Below, piece after piece: positions 1 through 6,033 of a DNA stretch of 43,441 nucleotides. Under the pieces are notes generated by a model, which was not told the DNA's origin, made no database searches, and worked only from the letters and a program-made list of their open reading frames with translations. The position numbers were made by a program, and so were the translations under genes. This DNA comes from Bacteroidales bacterium (GTDB taxonomy: Bacteria > Bacteroidota > Bacteroidia > Bacteroidales > UBA932). The stretch is taken from positions 1 to 43,441 of the forward strand of contig JALFFZ010000079.1 of the NCBI GenBank assembly GCA_022777585.1. Direction: 5' to 3'. The number at the start of each line of letters is the position of its first letter. The first letter of the stretch is position 1.

Positions 1-161
1 CCTCAAGTCGCATCGTGGGGTAAGGGGATGGTGGCTACATATTGATGTTGTGCTGTTGCTTTTTACTGAAAGCTGCTACTAACGACTCATAAATCTACCC
101 TTAATCGTGTATTGGATGATAGTTGCGGATTTTAGGTATAATAATTTAATCTAGGATTAAG

Positions 162-2336
162 ATGATAGATTATATACAAATAGGAATAGAGAAAGGACTT
201 ATTTCCCTCAACGAGGATAAGTCTCGAATTAAATATATATGGCAAAAGAAAGAGCGCAATTATAATGATCCCGAAGAAAAGGTACAAGCATTAACTTTTC
301 TTCAGTTGATACTTGACTATAATTATCCAGTGTATCTTATTCGCTTGTTTGTGCCCGTAACGATGGGAAGCGAAGTTAAGGAGGCTGATATTGTTGTCTA
401 TGGTGATGAATTGTGCCTCAGTCCTTTAATCCTTGTTGAATGTAAAAAACAGGAAGTAAGTGAGGCTGAGTTTCAACAGGCCATCAATCAAGCATATAGT
501 TATGCATTTGCTTTGCCTGGTGAGGTGAAATATGTTTGGGTAACCTCTGGTATTAAGAATGAATATTTTGAAGTTGACAAGACTCAAAATACGCGTAATC
601 AGCTTCCTGATATACCACAGTATGGTGTTCAAGAAATAGCTAACTACAAGTATGTTTATGGTGCAGAACATCTTCCGAAAGAAGACGGAAAACAGCGTTT
701 TTTTGATTTGTCTATTATTGACCAAGCAGATTTGACACGTCGTTTTAAACAAGCTCATGAAGCATTATGGGCAGGGGGCCAGTTGAATCCATCTGAAGCT
801 TTTGATGAACTTGATAAGCTCATATTTTGCAAGATCTGGGATGAACGCAAGCCAAGAAAGATGGGTGAACCATACGATTTCCAAATCATAACAATATCAA
901 AGAAAGAAGAAAAGGACGAGCACAAACGCAGGCTTAAAGAAAATGACAATCTGTATAACAGGGTAAAAGCTCTTTATGAAGAAGGTCGAAAGCGTGATGC
1001 AGAAGTGTTTCGTGACAACATTCGATTAACTCCTGAGAAAATTAGGACTGTTGTGAGCTATCTTGAAAGTGTAAACCTTGGGGAAACAGATCTTGATAGT
1101 AAGGGACGTGCGTTTGAAACTTTTATGGGTTCATTCTTCCGCGGAAATTTCGGGCAATACTTTACACCTCGTGAAATTGTAAAATTCATTGTTGATGTGC
1201 TTCCTATTACGCATGATTCAAAAGTATTGGATACATCATGTGGTAGTGGCGGATTCTTGCTCTATGCTCTCAATAAAGTACGAAACGAAGCCACAGATTA
1301 TTATCCGAATTACAAGAATGATGCAAAGCAATATGCCAAGTGGTTCCCTTATTGGCATGACTTTGCTGAGAAGAACCTTTATGGTATAGAAATCAATGAG
1401 CAGATTTCACGTGCAGCCAAGATGAATATGATTATTCACGATGATGGTCATACAAATGTCATAACATCTGATGGACTGGTCTCTGATGCCACCATCAAAG
1501 AGCGTACAGGTAATAAAGGCTTCGAGTATGGAACATTTGATTTCATCATTACTAATCCACCTTTCGGAAGTAACATCCGGCAGACAGAACAGGCATACCT
1601 TAAAACCTATCAGTTAGGTAAAAAGGAAGAAGATTGGCTTGCGGTCAAAGCTAAGGCTGGTGATAATACCCGTGATGGACAACAAAGTGAGGTCCTATTC
1701 ATTGAGCAGGATTATTTGTTCTTAAAAGAAGGAGGAATGCTTGCCATTGTATTGCCTGATGGTATTCTTACAAATAGCAGTATGCAGTATGTGCGTACTC
1801 AATTGGAAGACTGGTTCCGTATCGTCGCTGTTGTGAGTATGCCACAAACAGCATTTACCGCAAATGGAGCAGGAGTAAAAAGTTCTGTTTTATTCCTAAA
1901 GAAATGGCCGAAGGATCATACGGAAGAACTTGAAAGCAAGAAGAAATCAATTGAGGCGAAGCTTCTGAAAGATGCTGACTACATTGCGAAAAGAGATCTC
2001 TGGGACAGGGAAATTAGGGAAAAACAGAAAGAAAAAGTTAACTCGATGAAGTCGCGCGATTTAAAGTCAGCTACTGCTATTAAGCAAACTCAAGCTTACA
2101 AAGACTGGAACGCAGAGTTGTTGGCTGAATATGCAGCTAAGATTGACGATTTGAAGTCAAAGCTTACAGATAACTATCTTGAACGCAAACAGAAGGAACT
2201 TCCTGATTATCCTATTTTCATGGCAATAGCAGAAGATATAGGCTATGATGCAACAGGCAAGAAAACTGCGGTTAATGAGTTGGATATTATTGGTGAAGAA
2301 TTAAAAAAGTTCATTATTAGTTTGGATAGAATATGA
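162..2336 (+). CDS. Type I-like restriction-modification methylase (HsdM-like N6-adenine MTase) with N-terminal HSDR_N/PD-(D/E)xK-like domain
   Basis: MTase motifs FGQYFTPREIVKFIVD..VLDTSCGSGGFL (SAM binding) and NPPFGS (motif IV). N-terminus has EADIVVYGDELCLSPLILVECKKQEVSEAEFQQAINQAYSYA, which matches the D...ExK pattern of HSDR_N domains. Confidence 0.9.
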   Translation: MIDYIQIGIEKGLISLNEDKSRIKYIWQKKERNYNDPEEKVQALTFLQLILDYNYPVYLIRLFVPVTMGSEVKEADIVVYGDELCLSPLILVECKKQEVSEAEFQQAINQAYSYAFALPGEVKYVWVTSGIKNEYFEVDKTQNTRNQLPDIPQYGVQEIANYKYVYGAEHLPKEDGKQRFFDLSIIDQADLTRRFKQAHEALWAGGQLNPSEAFDELDKLIFCKIWDERKPRKMGEPYDFQIITISKKEEKDEHKRRLKENDNLYNRVKALYEEGRKRDAEVFRDNIRLTPEKIRTVVSYLESVNLGETDLDSKGRAFETFMGSFFRGNFGQYFTPREIVKFIVDVLPITHDSKVLDTSCGSGGFLLYALNKVRNEATDYYPNYKNDAKQYAKWFPYWHDFAEKNLYGIEINEQISRAAKMNMIIHDDGHTNVITSDGLVSDATIKERTGNKGFEYGTFDFIITNPPFGSNIRQTEQAYLKTYQLGKKEEDWLAVKAKAGDNTRDGQQSEVLFIEQDYLFLKEGGMLAIVLPDGILTNSSMQYVRTQLEDWFRIVAVVSMPQTAFTANGAGVKSSVLFLKKWPKDHTEELESKKKSIEAKLLKDADYIAKRDLWDREIREKQKEKVNSMKSRDLKSATAIKQTQAYKDWNAELLAEYAAKIDDLKSKLTDNYLERKQKELPDYPIFMAIAEDIGYDATGKKTAVNELDIIGEELKKFIISLDRI

Positions 2337-3853
2337 AACTAACAGGAATTATTGAGGATGTATTTCGTGGCGTAACAATCTTTCGAGGTTACGCTACATT
2401 AAAAACTTTAGCGAGATTATCTGCCTCTACTAGTTATCAAAGAGACAAAGACCCAGACAGAATAGATGCAATCAAAGATTACATCTCAAATTCATCATAT
2501 GTGTTCTATCCTGAATTAATTCTAGGTTGGCAATTGGATAATCCTGACGCTATTCGAATTATTAAAGAAGAAGAAAACACGAGTAGTGTTTCTTTGAATA
2601 ATGGTATTAAGATTAAAAAGGCAAAATTCAAATTTAAAAGTTTGCCTCTGGGTGAAGAGCCAAAAACAAAAGTAGTTACAATTGAAATTCCAGACTCCAT
2701 CAATGAGTCAATTTTTAATCGCATTGATGGCAATCATCGTTTATCCGTTGTAGATAAAATTAAAGACGAAACAGGAACATACGACAGCGAAATATGTAAT
2801 CAGATAGTTCCTTTCAGTCTGATCATCCAGAACAAATCCAACGATGCGAACAAATTTGAATCTGCATATTTCTATTTGATCAATTCCAAGGCAAAGGCAT
2901 TGACCACAGAAGAAAATCTGAAAGCAATCTTTAAAGCCGATTTTTCAGATATAGAGAAAGAATTACTTTTATCCATAGATAAGCCTCAAATAGATTGTAT
3001 ACAGTACATTTCCGAATATCTAAAGGGAAATCCTATAGACTTTGTACAAGATAAAGAAATTTTCGACTCAGAGATTTACACTTTTTCATGTAAACTTGCA
3101 AAAATAGTTGCAAATACACTAAGTAATTTTAGTGACGACAAAAAAGTCGAATTGCTTTATTCAATTAAATATATCAATAGCATATTTATCACAAGAAAGA
3201 TAAAAACCGATAATCGTGAAGTTTTTCTTGCACTCGTTATTGTTCATTATGCCCAAAACGACATTTTTGATAAATTTGTAGAATGGATCAACACAAATGA
3301 TGTTGGAACTATTGAAAATTTGGATTGTGAACACATTATTCAACTTTTCGATACTCTTCACAAACAGACTTCTTATAAGGTCTTTGTTGCAGTTCCATAT
3401 ATATCATTTAAGAGGGTTAATGAATATAATAAGCTTTTTAAGGAAGTTTTAAGTGATATCTCAAAAAAGATTGGGTTTGGATTAGAATTAATACCCATCA
3501 TGAGATTTAGAGGAGAATCCCAAAGGATTGACCAACGCTTAATTAATTGCATTAAAGAATGCGATATTTTCATAGGAGATTTGTCGACTGTAAATGATAA
3601 TGTTATCTTTGAAGTGGGATTAGCAGAAGGGTGTGGGAAGAAAATCCTTTTAATTAAGGCTGAAGAAGATACAGACCGCATTCTTTTTGATCAAGCGACC
3701 GTTCTTGACAAAGGTAAGATAGTGCCATTTGACATGGACAAACTACAATATATACCGTATTCAAATTCGGGTTATTATAATGATATAAAAAATATCATTA
3801 GAAATAACATCCCAGTTATTGTTGAACAATTAAGAAACGAAGGTCATGTATAA
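2333..3853 (+). CDS. DGQHR/DndB-like domain protein with C-terminal nucleoside 2-deoxyribosyltransferase/TIR-like domain
   Basis: N-terminal half: STSYQRDKDPDRIDAIKDYI..YPELIL..NRIDGNHRLSVVDKI..FYLINSKAKALTTEE, a DGQHR/DndB-type pattern. C-terminal: YKVFVAVPYISFKRVNEYNKLFKEVL...CDIFIGDLSTVNDNVIFEVGLAEGCGKKILLIKAE, a deoxyribosyltransferase/TIR-like Rossmann pattern. 4-bp ATGA overlap with the upstream gene and 8-bp overlap with hsdS. Confidence 0.75.
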   Translation: MKLTGIIEDVFRGVTIFRGYATLKTLARLSASTSYQRDKDPDRIDAIKDYISNSSYVFYPELILGWQLDNPDAIRIIKEEENTSSVSLNNGIKIKKAKFKFKSLPLGEEPKTKVVTIEIPDSINESIFNRIDGNHRLSVVDKIKDETGTYDSEICNQIVPFSLIIQNKSNDANKFESAYFYLINSKAKALTTEENLKAIFKADFSDIEKELLLSIDKPQIDCIQYISEYLKGNPIDFVQDKEIFDSEIYTFSCKLAKIVANTLSNFSDDKKVELLYSIKYINSIFITRKIKTDNREVFLALVIVHYAQNDIFDKFVEWINTNDVGTIENLDCEHIIQLFDTLHKQTSYKVFVAVPYISFKRVNEYNKLFKEVLSDISKKIGFGLELIPIMRFRGESQRIDQRLINCIKECDIFIGDLSTVNDNVIFEVGLAEGCGKKILLIKAEEDTDRILFDQATVLDKGKIVPFDMDKLQYIPYSNSGYYNDIKNIIRNNIPVIVEQLRNEGHV

Positions 3854-5240
3854 TGTTCCTCAACATATAGATAACAACAAAGTCTTCATCCTTCAACGGT
3901 CAGAGATAGAAGGACGTCTTGATCCTAAGATGGCTTTATATAATCGTAAAGTCTTGCACTCATTGTACCCAAAGGTGAGATTGAAAGATGTACTTTTATG
4001 TAAACCGCAGTATGGAGCAAGTGAGTCTGGATTCCCAAGAAGTTCGAGGGAAGAACCTCGTTATATAAGAATTACAGATATAGACGAGAATGGATTGATT
4101 TCTTATAACGAATTGGGGGCAACAGCAAAGAATATTGAAGATAAATACATTCTTGGTGAGAAAGACATTTTAATTGCAAGAAGTGGAGCTACCGTAGGAA
4201 AGGCATACATTCATAAGTCTGCTCCTTATGCTTGCTTTTTTGCAGGTTATCTTATTCGTTTTATTATCAATACGAATAAAGCACTTCCGGAATACATATT
4301 CACTTACACACAACTTAACCCTTACAAAGAGTGGGTTAATGCAATCCAGCGTCCAAGTGGCCAACCCAATATTAATTCTGAAGAATATCAATCTCTTGAA
4401 ATACCTCTACCCAACATAGAGAAACAACAAGTAATAGTTGATCTAATCAAGTCTGCATATTTGCGAAAGAAACAAAAGGAATCCGAAGCCCAACAGCTTT
4501 TGGATAGCATTGACACATATATACTCAACGAGCTTGGAATAACTCTACCGAAAATCAAGACAGATTTAAAGAATAGAATATTCAATGTGAATAGAAGCGA
4601 ACTTGAAGAAAGATTAGATCCAACTGTTTACAAAGATGGTGTTAAACTCTGTTCAAATAATTATGATAATGTGAAGTTGTCTAGTGTTGCATATGTTAAT
4701 CCTACAGGGACGTTTAAGGGAAAAGATATTGAGACCCCAATATCTTTTATACCTATGGAGTCTATAGATGAAATCTATTCAGAAGTAAGCAAACTCGAAG
4801 ACACAACGATAGAAAATGCATCAGGTTTCACTAAATTCAAAGAGGGGGACTTGCTTTGGGCAAAGATAACCCCTTGTATGCAGAATGGAAAGTCAGCCAT
4901 AGCCAAAAACTTGACAAATGGCTTGGGATGTGGCTCAACAGAGTTCTTTGTCATGCGTCCTAAAGATGAACGACTTGCAATAGAATATCTTCACGTAATT
5001 CTTCACATGAAGTGTGTAAGAGAAACAGCGATGCTTTACTTCGGCGGTTCTGCTGGACAACAACGTGTTTCATCTGCATTTCTTGAGAATTTTAATTTGC
5101 CTCTTCCTCCAAAAGATAAGCAGATTGAGATAGCGAACCATGTTTATACTATACGCCAAAAAGCAAAAGCCTTACAAGAAGAAGGCAAAGTCTTATTGGA
5201 GGAAGCAAAAAGAAAAGTAGAATCAATGATAATTGGATAA
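3846..5240 (+). CDS. Type I restriction-modification specificity subunit (HsdS), two target recognition domains
   Basis: Two TRD-like halves, each introduced by a related segment (VFILQRSEIEGRLDPKM and IFNVNRSELEERLDPTV). IPLPNIEKQQVIVDLIKSAYLRKKQ and LPLPPKDKQIEIANHVYTIRQKAKAL are typical S-subunit spacer helices. Confidence 0.93.
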   Translation: MYNVPQHIDNNKVFILQRSEIEGRLDPKMALYNRKVLHSLYPKVRLKDVLLCKPQYGASESGFPRSSREEPRYIRITDIDENGLISYNELGATAKNIEDKYILGEKDILIARSGATVGKAYIHKSAPYACFFAGYLIRFIINTNKALPEYIFTYTQLNPYKEWVNAIQRPSGQPNINSEEYQSLEIPLPNIEKQQVIVDLIKSAYLRKKQKESEAQQLLDSIDTYILNELGITLPKIKTDLKNRIFNVNRSELEERLDPTVYKDGVKLCSNNYDNVKLSSVAYVNPTGTFKGKDIETPISFIPMESIDEIYSEVSKLEDTTIENASGFTKFKEGDLLWAKITPCMQNGKSAIAKNLTNGLGCGSTEFFVMRPKDERLAIEYLHVILHMKCVRETAMLYFGGSAGQQRVSSAFLENFNLPLPPKDKQIEIANHVYTIRQKAKALQEEGKVLLEEAKRKVESMIIG

Positions 5241-5243
5241 CAA

Positions 5244-5630
5244 ATGGAACCAGAAATAGTAAAGACAACAATAACGCCATTAAAGGATTTACTTCCAGAA
5301 ATATATGGAGATGCTTTAAAACCAGGAATGAAAGCAGTTGGCCATGCTATCGGAGATGCACTAGAGATGTGCTTACTCCCTATAACAGCTATGGGATATG
5401 TACCAAAGTTAGCAAAAAAGTGTTTAGACAAACATCTTAAAACATTTGAACAGAAACTGAATAAAATACCAGAGGACAAGAAAACAGATATTCATCCGCA
5501 GATATCAATTCCTGTTATTCAGAAATTATTATATACAACAAATGACACTATTGCAGAACTTTTTATATACATGGAATCTTACCTAACTTGGCCAGACGGT
5601 ATAGTGTACTGCGCTCAACTCCGTTTATAG
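5244..5630 (+). pseudogene. DUF4393 (Abi-alpha-like) protein, 3'-truncated
   Basis: LKDLLPEIYGDALKPGMKAVGHAIGDALEMCLLPITAMGYVPKLAKKCLDKHLKTFEQKLNKIPEDKKTDIHPQISIPVIQKLLYTTNDTIAELFI is DUF4393-like. After ELFI the sequence becomes the antisense of the convergent HTH gene. Confidence 0.6.
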
Positions 5631-5844
5631 CAACAACTTGGCGAGCTGTCAGGTACTCTCGGATGTCAGGCACGTTCTGCGCATATGTAACAAATAAGGC
5701 TTCTTTCTTCTCTTTGTCCTTCTTACGCTTGTTTGCTACTTTGCTGCACTTCGGAGAGCAGTAAACGCTGTCTAACGTCTTAATAATAAAGACTTTGCCA
5801 CAAATCGGGCACTTTCTCTTGATTTCAATTCCTAAATTTGCCAT
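5563..5844 (-). pseudogene. Zn-finger plus helix-turn-helix/excisionase-like protein, C-terminally truncated
   Basis: CPICGKVFIIKTLDSVYCSPKCSKVANKRKKDKEKKEALF zinc-binding N-terminus, then DIREYLTARQVVAINGVERSTLYRLAKLGKIPCI (HTH_17-like). Ends abruptly at GKIP. Confidence 0.65.
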
Positions 5845-5998
5845 GTCTTCTACTTGTAAGTTTTACTAAGTCCTATATGTATGTTTAAGTATGTTTATGT
5901 CCAACCTTATCTACCATTAAGTCTTGCTACAAGTATGTAACAAAAAAGCCGTAAAAAAGGGGGAATAAGCACATAGAAAACATAATCCCATAAAAAAC

Positions 5999-6033
5999 AA
6001 ATGGCGTGTAACTCATTGAGCTACACGCCATTT
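5999..6033. terminator. Perfect 12-bp inverted repeat with 11-nt loop (terminator-like hairpin)
   Basis: AAATGGCGTGTA-actcattgagc-TACACGCCATTT. Confidence 0.6.

Follow-up and report, generated by a model that had tools for sequence, protein, structure and literature searches.

The window analysed here, the whole stretch of 43,441 nucleotides of contig JALFFZ010000079.1 (Bacteroidales bacterium, GCA_022777585.1), carries a restriction-modification (R-M) locus in its first 6 kb. The features of this locus, in window coordinates, are as follows.

162..2336, + strand: Type IIB-like RM subunit, 724 aa, with an N-terminal PD-(D/E)xK endonuclease (HSDR_N_2) and an N6-adenine methyltransferase (Pfam, RM.BsaXI match).
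2333..3853, + strand: accessory gene X, 506 aa, with a DGNHR domain and an NDT/TIR-like domain (ORF list, Pfam, NCBIfam, alignment, AlphaFold model).
2333..3364, + strand: N-terminal DGQHR/DndB/ParB-Srx-type domain of X and helical linker (conserved residues, structural matches).
3365..3850, + strand: C-terminal NDT/TIR-like domain of X, about residues 345/349-506 (profile and Foldseek matches).
3846..5240, + strand: S (target recognition) subunit, 464 aa, with two Methylase_S stretches (Pfam Methylase_S, 1.8e-21).
5244..5630, + strand: Abi_alpha/PDC-S47 gene, 3'-truncated, matching residues 1-107 of a 265-aa model (PADLOC PDC-S47, 1.1e-29; Pfam Abi_alpha, 4.3e-4).

X is a separate gene, the middle one of a three-gene operon, between the genes for the RM and S subunits. 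Its start codon shares letters with the stop of the upstream RM gene (ATGA), its 3' end overlaps the start of the S gene by 8 nt, and it is translationally coupled to both. The original prediction, which placed an NDT/TIR-like domain at the C-terminal end of an R-M gene, quoted segments that do lie in frame within the ORF at 2333-3853. It was right about where the domain lies, but its start coordinate (3373) falls out of frame and misses by a few bases the domain's beginning at about K349 (codon 3377), and the label of the gene has to be dropped, as X has its own ORF and is no R-M subunit. For the window, we therefore rejected the reading of X as a piece of such a subunit; the lone in-frame fusion that we met resembles a deletion. 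This fusion is found on a Leisingera thetidis plasmid (NZ_CP109788.1, L008:8891-11134), where a methyltransferase runs in frame into the rest of X, with the end of the methyltransferase and the start of X missing.

The flanking genes were assigned from their domains and closest solved relative. The RM subunit matches HSDR_N_2 (3.9e-18) and N6_Mtase (1.5e-35) in Pfam, has the nuclease residues E38, D76, E93-x-K95 and Q110 and an NPPF methyltransferase motif at 1554-1565, and finds its best solved relative in RM.BsaXI (E=1.2e-41). Among 68 relatives compared, D76, E93 and K95 are kept in 66/66 having a residue there, with or without X. The locus has both gene features expected of Type IIB systems, an RM fusion of PD-(D/E)xK nuclease and N6-adenine methyltransferase and, as a gene of its own, an S subunit bearing two target recognition domains. 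Enzymes of the BcgI/BsaXI kind are built from RM and S subunits only (PMC3874165; PMC11997821), and RM and S together look like a BcgI/BsaXI-like enzyme. Because such enzymes consist of RM and S only, no HsdR is needed at this locus. We rejected the loss of an HsdR gene in assembly as the main reading, given that the RM subunit has a PD-(D/E)xK domain of its own and the Type IIB enzyme RM.BsaXI as its best solved relative. Membership in the MADS family was rejected as well, since the methyltransferase and S genes match mad2 and mad5 only distantly, missing the equivalog cut-offs (MAD2, 298.3 vs 720 bits; MAD5, 72.5 vs 400 bits), and other families score far better. A search of the window for inverted repeats that could serve invertible S-gene switching gave none that was convincing.

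The Abi_alpha/PDC-S47 gene is the next gene after S on the same strand and is a linked, candidate member of the system. Between 5244 and 5844 this gene (+) and an HTH_17/AlpA-like treble-clef gene (-) both seem to be cut short where they meet, head to head, at about 5567; an insertion, a deletion or contig chimerism may have made this junction. The G+C content is 32-40% over the R-M locus (window 1-6000) versus 43-56% in 6001-43441, which suggests either that the DNA was acquired or that the contig was joined.

To place X in its wider genomic context, we scanned one genome per species for relatives with a RIDGNHRL-type motif. The best 80 of 131 relatives were kept and, with two from viral contigs, make up 82 loci that include a few near-duplicates; the context may differ for relatives with other motifs and for the 51 weaker ones. 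R-M genes adjoin X in 77/82 loci, partial or frame-shifted neighbours counted. The gene order is M-S-X in 44 loci, M-X-S in 21 and Type I M-S-R-X in six, the last with an HsdR of ~1000 aa (split in one of the six); the remaining 11 are disrupted, cut by a contig end or different. The commonest junction of X with its upstream gene is a 4-nt overlap of the ATGA type. A tblastn search for X gave one match in plasmids and none in phages.

X does not always accompany its R-M partners. A related RM gene was found in 16 Bacteroidales loci, three of them with X; no X was seen in the other 13, at least 10 of which show RM, S and both flanks. Nuclease residues are equally intact in RM relatives without X. 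As related two-gene systems of RM and S exist without it, X is an optional add-on, and these X-less loci make it unlikely that X is essential to the R-M enzyme.

Some loci of the collection depart from these arrangements. Slots similar to that of X are occupied by BRO-N between M and S (L115:577-1419, L116:4640-5500) and by a DUF4325 STAS-like gene between M and S (L120:337-1152), and a Hypoth_Ymh (HEPN-like) gene lies just 5' of X in L082:7246-7977. RM and S are fused into one 1206-aa, AloI-like ORF without X in L112:3383-7003. On a viral contig (L090:2129-7976; IMG/VR 2721755263_000003), X stands beside a 1016-aa protein with an RdRP match (PF05183, E=4.8e-10), and the same contig has an ORF in which sigma-70 regions precede a Methylase_S domain. 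Two homologues of X (L080:6819-9383, L088:33-2249) have an extra N-terminal region and an insertion before an NPNVMYELG motif.

The conservation of X was assessed in an alignment of 69 full-length sequences, X of the window and 68 homologues with 21-58% identity to it; the homologues come from many phyla. Invariant in the N-terminal part are R18, G19, S30, Q36, R37, E61, the block R130-IDGNHR-L137 (2720-2743), F180, I183, N184 and W318, and in the tail F351, N423, V424 and E427. Two further tail positions vary in a restricted manner, D416 being D in 64 sequences and N in five, and N421 being N in 54 and R in 15. The codons of the key tail residues lie at 3578-3580 (D416), 3593-3595 (N421), 3599-3601 (N423) and 3611-3613 (E427). 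Such conservation is compatible with an active enzyme family that shares a putative nucleophile and has pocket residues particular to each subtype.

For the N-terminal domain, the homology to the DGQHR/DndB family is clear from sequence comparison. TIGR03187 (DGQHR, NCBIfam) matches X of the window with 35.2 bits (E=1.1e-8), short of its curated cut-off of 58.85, and finds 61 of the 69 sequences at E<=0.001; the Pfam DndB match of X of the window likewise stays under its curated cut-off. The original prediction of a DGQHR domain thus stands for the type of domain but not for the motif, as the pentapeptide reads DGNHR in 69/69. Structural comparison of this domain with viral proteins led to DndB, DUF262/GmrSD_N and ParB-Srx; the NCBIfam model DpdB matches three of the 69, and GmrSD_N four. 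A PDB search with the N-domain profile gave nothing useful. A superfamily uniting GmrS and DGQHR domains has been described (PMC4619093), and it is the relationship to DGQHR, GmrSD_N and DndB that suggests sensing of modified DNA by X.

The C-terminal domain is related to nucleoside deoxyribosyltransferases (NDTs) beyond chance. Pfam PF05014 (NDT) matches X of the window with E=6.6e-5 and 23.5 bits, below the curated cut-off of 28.8, and 36 of the 69 sequences at E<=0.01, the best with 5.4e-8. A profile built from 68 C-domains finds T. brucei NDRT (3.8e-6) and CMP N-glycosidase (3.6e-5). The AlphaFold model (pLDDT 88.8 for the whole of X, 87.0 for the C-domain alone) shows the beta-alpha order of the NDT fold in the tail, and Foldseek with the AF2 model of the C-domain ranked NDTs first (CtNDT, E=1.1e-6), followed by SARM1 and other TIRs and DNPH1. 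The SARM1 TIR domain matches at 6.3e-5, weaker than the NDTs, whose fold is related to that of TIRs; TM-scores are moderate (0.4-0.6), as expected of distant relatives. In alignment with T. brucei NDRT, E427 falls on the Glu of the FEVG motif, on the helix after the third strand where NDTs have their catalytic Glu, and is the predicted nucleophile of the X tail. Both checks thus bear out what was first read from the sequence, namely a Rossmann-like NDT/TIR fold, found in the model, and candidate catalytic residues in GDLS (D416, D in 64/69) and FEVGLAE (E427, 69/69), found conserved in the alignment.

The computed features of the tail are compatible with NDT and TIR chemistry alike: its N-V-x-x-E-x-G signature resembles that of CAP12/PycTIR, while the best fold match is to NDTs. 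The CAP12/PycTIR model (PF10137) reaches 12.8 bits with X of the window, missing its cut-off of 24.7, and matches nine of the 69 sequences at E<=0.01. Since the invariant N-V pair is not known as a hallmark of NDTs, the substrate cannot be read from the sequence. A related NxNVxxExG domain occurs in many other small Bacteroidales proteins (L131-L155), in one case fused to an Mrr_cat nuclease (L145).

Sensor and tail of X differ in their histories. The homologues L045 and L081 share 52% identity in the N-terminal part and 13% in the tail, and L010 and L013 share 21% and 62%, respectively. On the N-part tree, a quick tree with long branches, the four tail subtypes need 12 changes, the subtypes having been set from motifs in the tail sequences before the tree was built and two labels corrected; in the AU test, the hypothesis that one tail subtype arose only once is rejected (p=0.0013). 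Judged by this test, the N- and C-domains have been recombined, as in modular sensor-effector proteins.

The results computed for X comprise the predicted fold, an invariant putative nucleophile and DGNHR block, the conserved linkage and coupling to RM and S genes, related two-gene systems that do without it and effector subtypes that have been exchanged between sensor domains; from here we infer its silencing, trigger and substrate. The reading we favour, and to which we give an even chance, is that X is an optional R-M accessory in which a DGNHR domain, as the sensor of DNA or NTP, is coupled to an effector tail with glycosidase activity of the NDT/TIR type that aborts infection. The intact R-M complex would hold X inactive. 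Inhibition or bypass of the R-M enzyme, or the binding of foreign or modified DNA, would make the DGNHR domain switch, probably via NTP binding or hydrolysis, and E427 would attack an N-glycosidic bond in NAD+ or in deoxynucleotides. This would abort the infection, much as PrrC backs up EcoprrI; PrrC sits within a Type I R-M system that keeps it silent (PMC3874165; PMC12707154), and the hypothesis of immunity-suicide coupling (PMC3506569) is a further precedent. NDT-like effectors occur in retrons, and Retron-Eco1, according to the title of a cited paper, assembles NAD+-hydrolysing filaments (PMC8989520, PMC12548924). By analogy, NDT-like retron effectors and TIR NADases may supply the chemistry for the proposed mechanism. 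The guard role is just one use of an X-type module.

Other readings give the same two domains different tasks. X may act on DNA, with a DGNHR NTPase loading DNA and the NDT-like site removing or exchanging a base, as a third, base-excising or base-modifying activity of the R-M system. On DNA, the base-exchanging enzyme DpdA has as its partner DpdB, an ATPase of the DGQHR/ParB-like kind (PMC12839542); the NCBIfam model of DpdB is the one that matches three of the 69 sequences, and NDT domains of Abi proteins have been proposed by Anantharaman et al. 2013 to act on DNA (PMC3710099). Yet the solved NDT, DNPH1 and TIR relatives use free nucleosides, nucleotides or NAD+, and we identified no surface for DNA binding in the tail, so we consider this reading unlikely. 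In a bolder form, which we hold to be quite improbable, X would be a base-excising or base-exchanging enzyme whose NDT-like site receives DNA from the DGNHR NTPase, and N-glycosidic chemistry would serve these R-M systems, besides methylation and cleavage, to mark DNA or to destroy it.

Alternatively, X may be no toxin but a DndB-like regulator that restrains or activates either modification or restriction and whose NDT-like domain senses a ligand and tunes the R-M enzyme. A regulatory role in Dnd systems is ascribed to DndB (PMC12707154, PMC12839542), and the coupling of X to RM and S and its presence with Type IIB-like and Type I enzymes alike would suit such a role. However, a pure sensor is not expected to retain an invariant catalytic-type Glu, related two-gene loci lack X, and the swapping of C-domain subtypes suggests diversification of an effector, which leaves the regulator with a rather small chance. 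The GmrSD_N matches to four of the 69 sequences and the viral structural matches to DUF262/GmrSD_N are consistent with a second restriction arm, in which DGNHR recognises foreign DNA that escapes R-M (GmrSD-like, Type IV) and in which killing or nucleotide depletion by the tail does not depend on R-M status; the strict linkage to RM and S argues instead for a functional tie to the R-M complex, making an independent arm very unlikely.

Among known systems, PrrC/EcoprrI and RloC come closest to the favoured reading of X, that of a latent effector whose gene is embedded in an R-M operon and which would guard against antirestriction. PrrC is an anticodon nuclease, whereas X combines DGNHR and NDT/TIR-like domains of a different presumed chemistry, and its sequestration by R-M is putative; neither the NTPase nor the tRNA anticodon nuclease domain of PrrC was found in X, which gave only DGQHR/DndB and NDT/TIR-like matches. 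The Type IIB systems BcgI and BsaXI share the flanking RM fusion with its PD-(D/E)xK domain and the S subunit but are described as two-subunit enzymes, while X loci have a third gene between or after RM and S. Members of the DndB/DGQHR family and DpdB have, like X, a DGxHR-motif domain in DNA-modification loci. X differs from them in its DGNHR motif, its fused NDT-like tail and its TIGR03187 score below the cut-off, and no dndCDE or dpd genes were seen among the genes of window 162-5844, whose upstream side ends at the contig end. With NDT, DNPH1 and CMP N-glycosidase (PF05014), the tail shares the fold, the aligned Glu (FEVG/YELG) and D-L-S at the end of strand 3; in contrast to these enzymes it is fused to a DGNHR domain, has NxNV before the Glu and, in the window, scores below the Pfam cut-off. 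CAP12/PycTIR shares the N-V-x-x-E-x-G motif and retrons the use of an NDT-like effector in defence, whereas X stands in an R-M context with no CD-NTase, cyclase or reverse transcriptase adjoining. MADS has a related methyltransferase and S subunit (mad2/mad5), from which the present genes are set apart by scores far below the cut-offs, with no further mad gene among the neighbours.

PADLOC gave no model for X beyond a weak TIR effector match, and in the open-access literature searched we found no description of a DGQHR or NDT gene of this kind in R-M loci. All the domains and neighbours belong to known kinds. What seems not to have been described before is the fusion, together with its R-M linkage in two classes of R-M system and the modularity of its tails. 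X is probably a widespread, undescribed companion weapon of restriction systems. If so, Type IIB and some Type I systems, usually treated as complete with RM and S or with R, M and S, would have a widespread third component, and if X acts as a PrrC-like guard with glycosidase activity, the coupling of R-M to a suicide effector would be a general, modular strategy with exchangeable tails.
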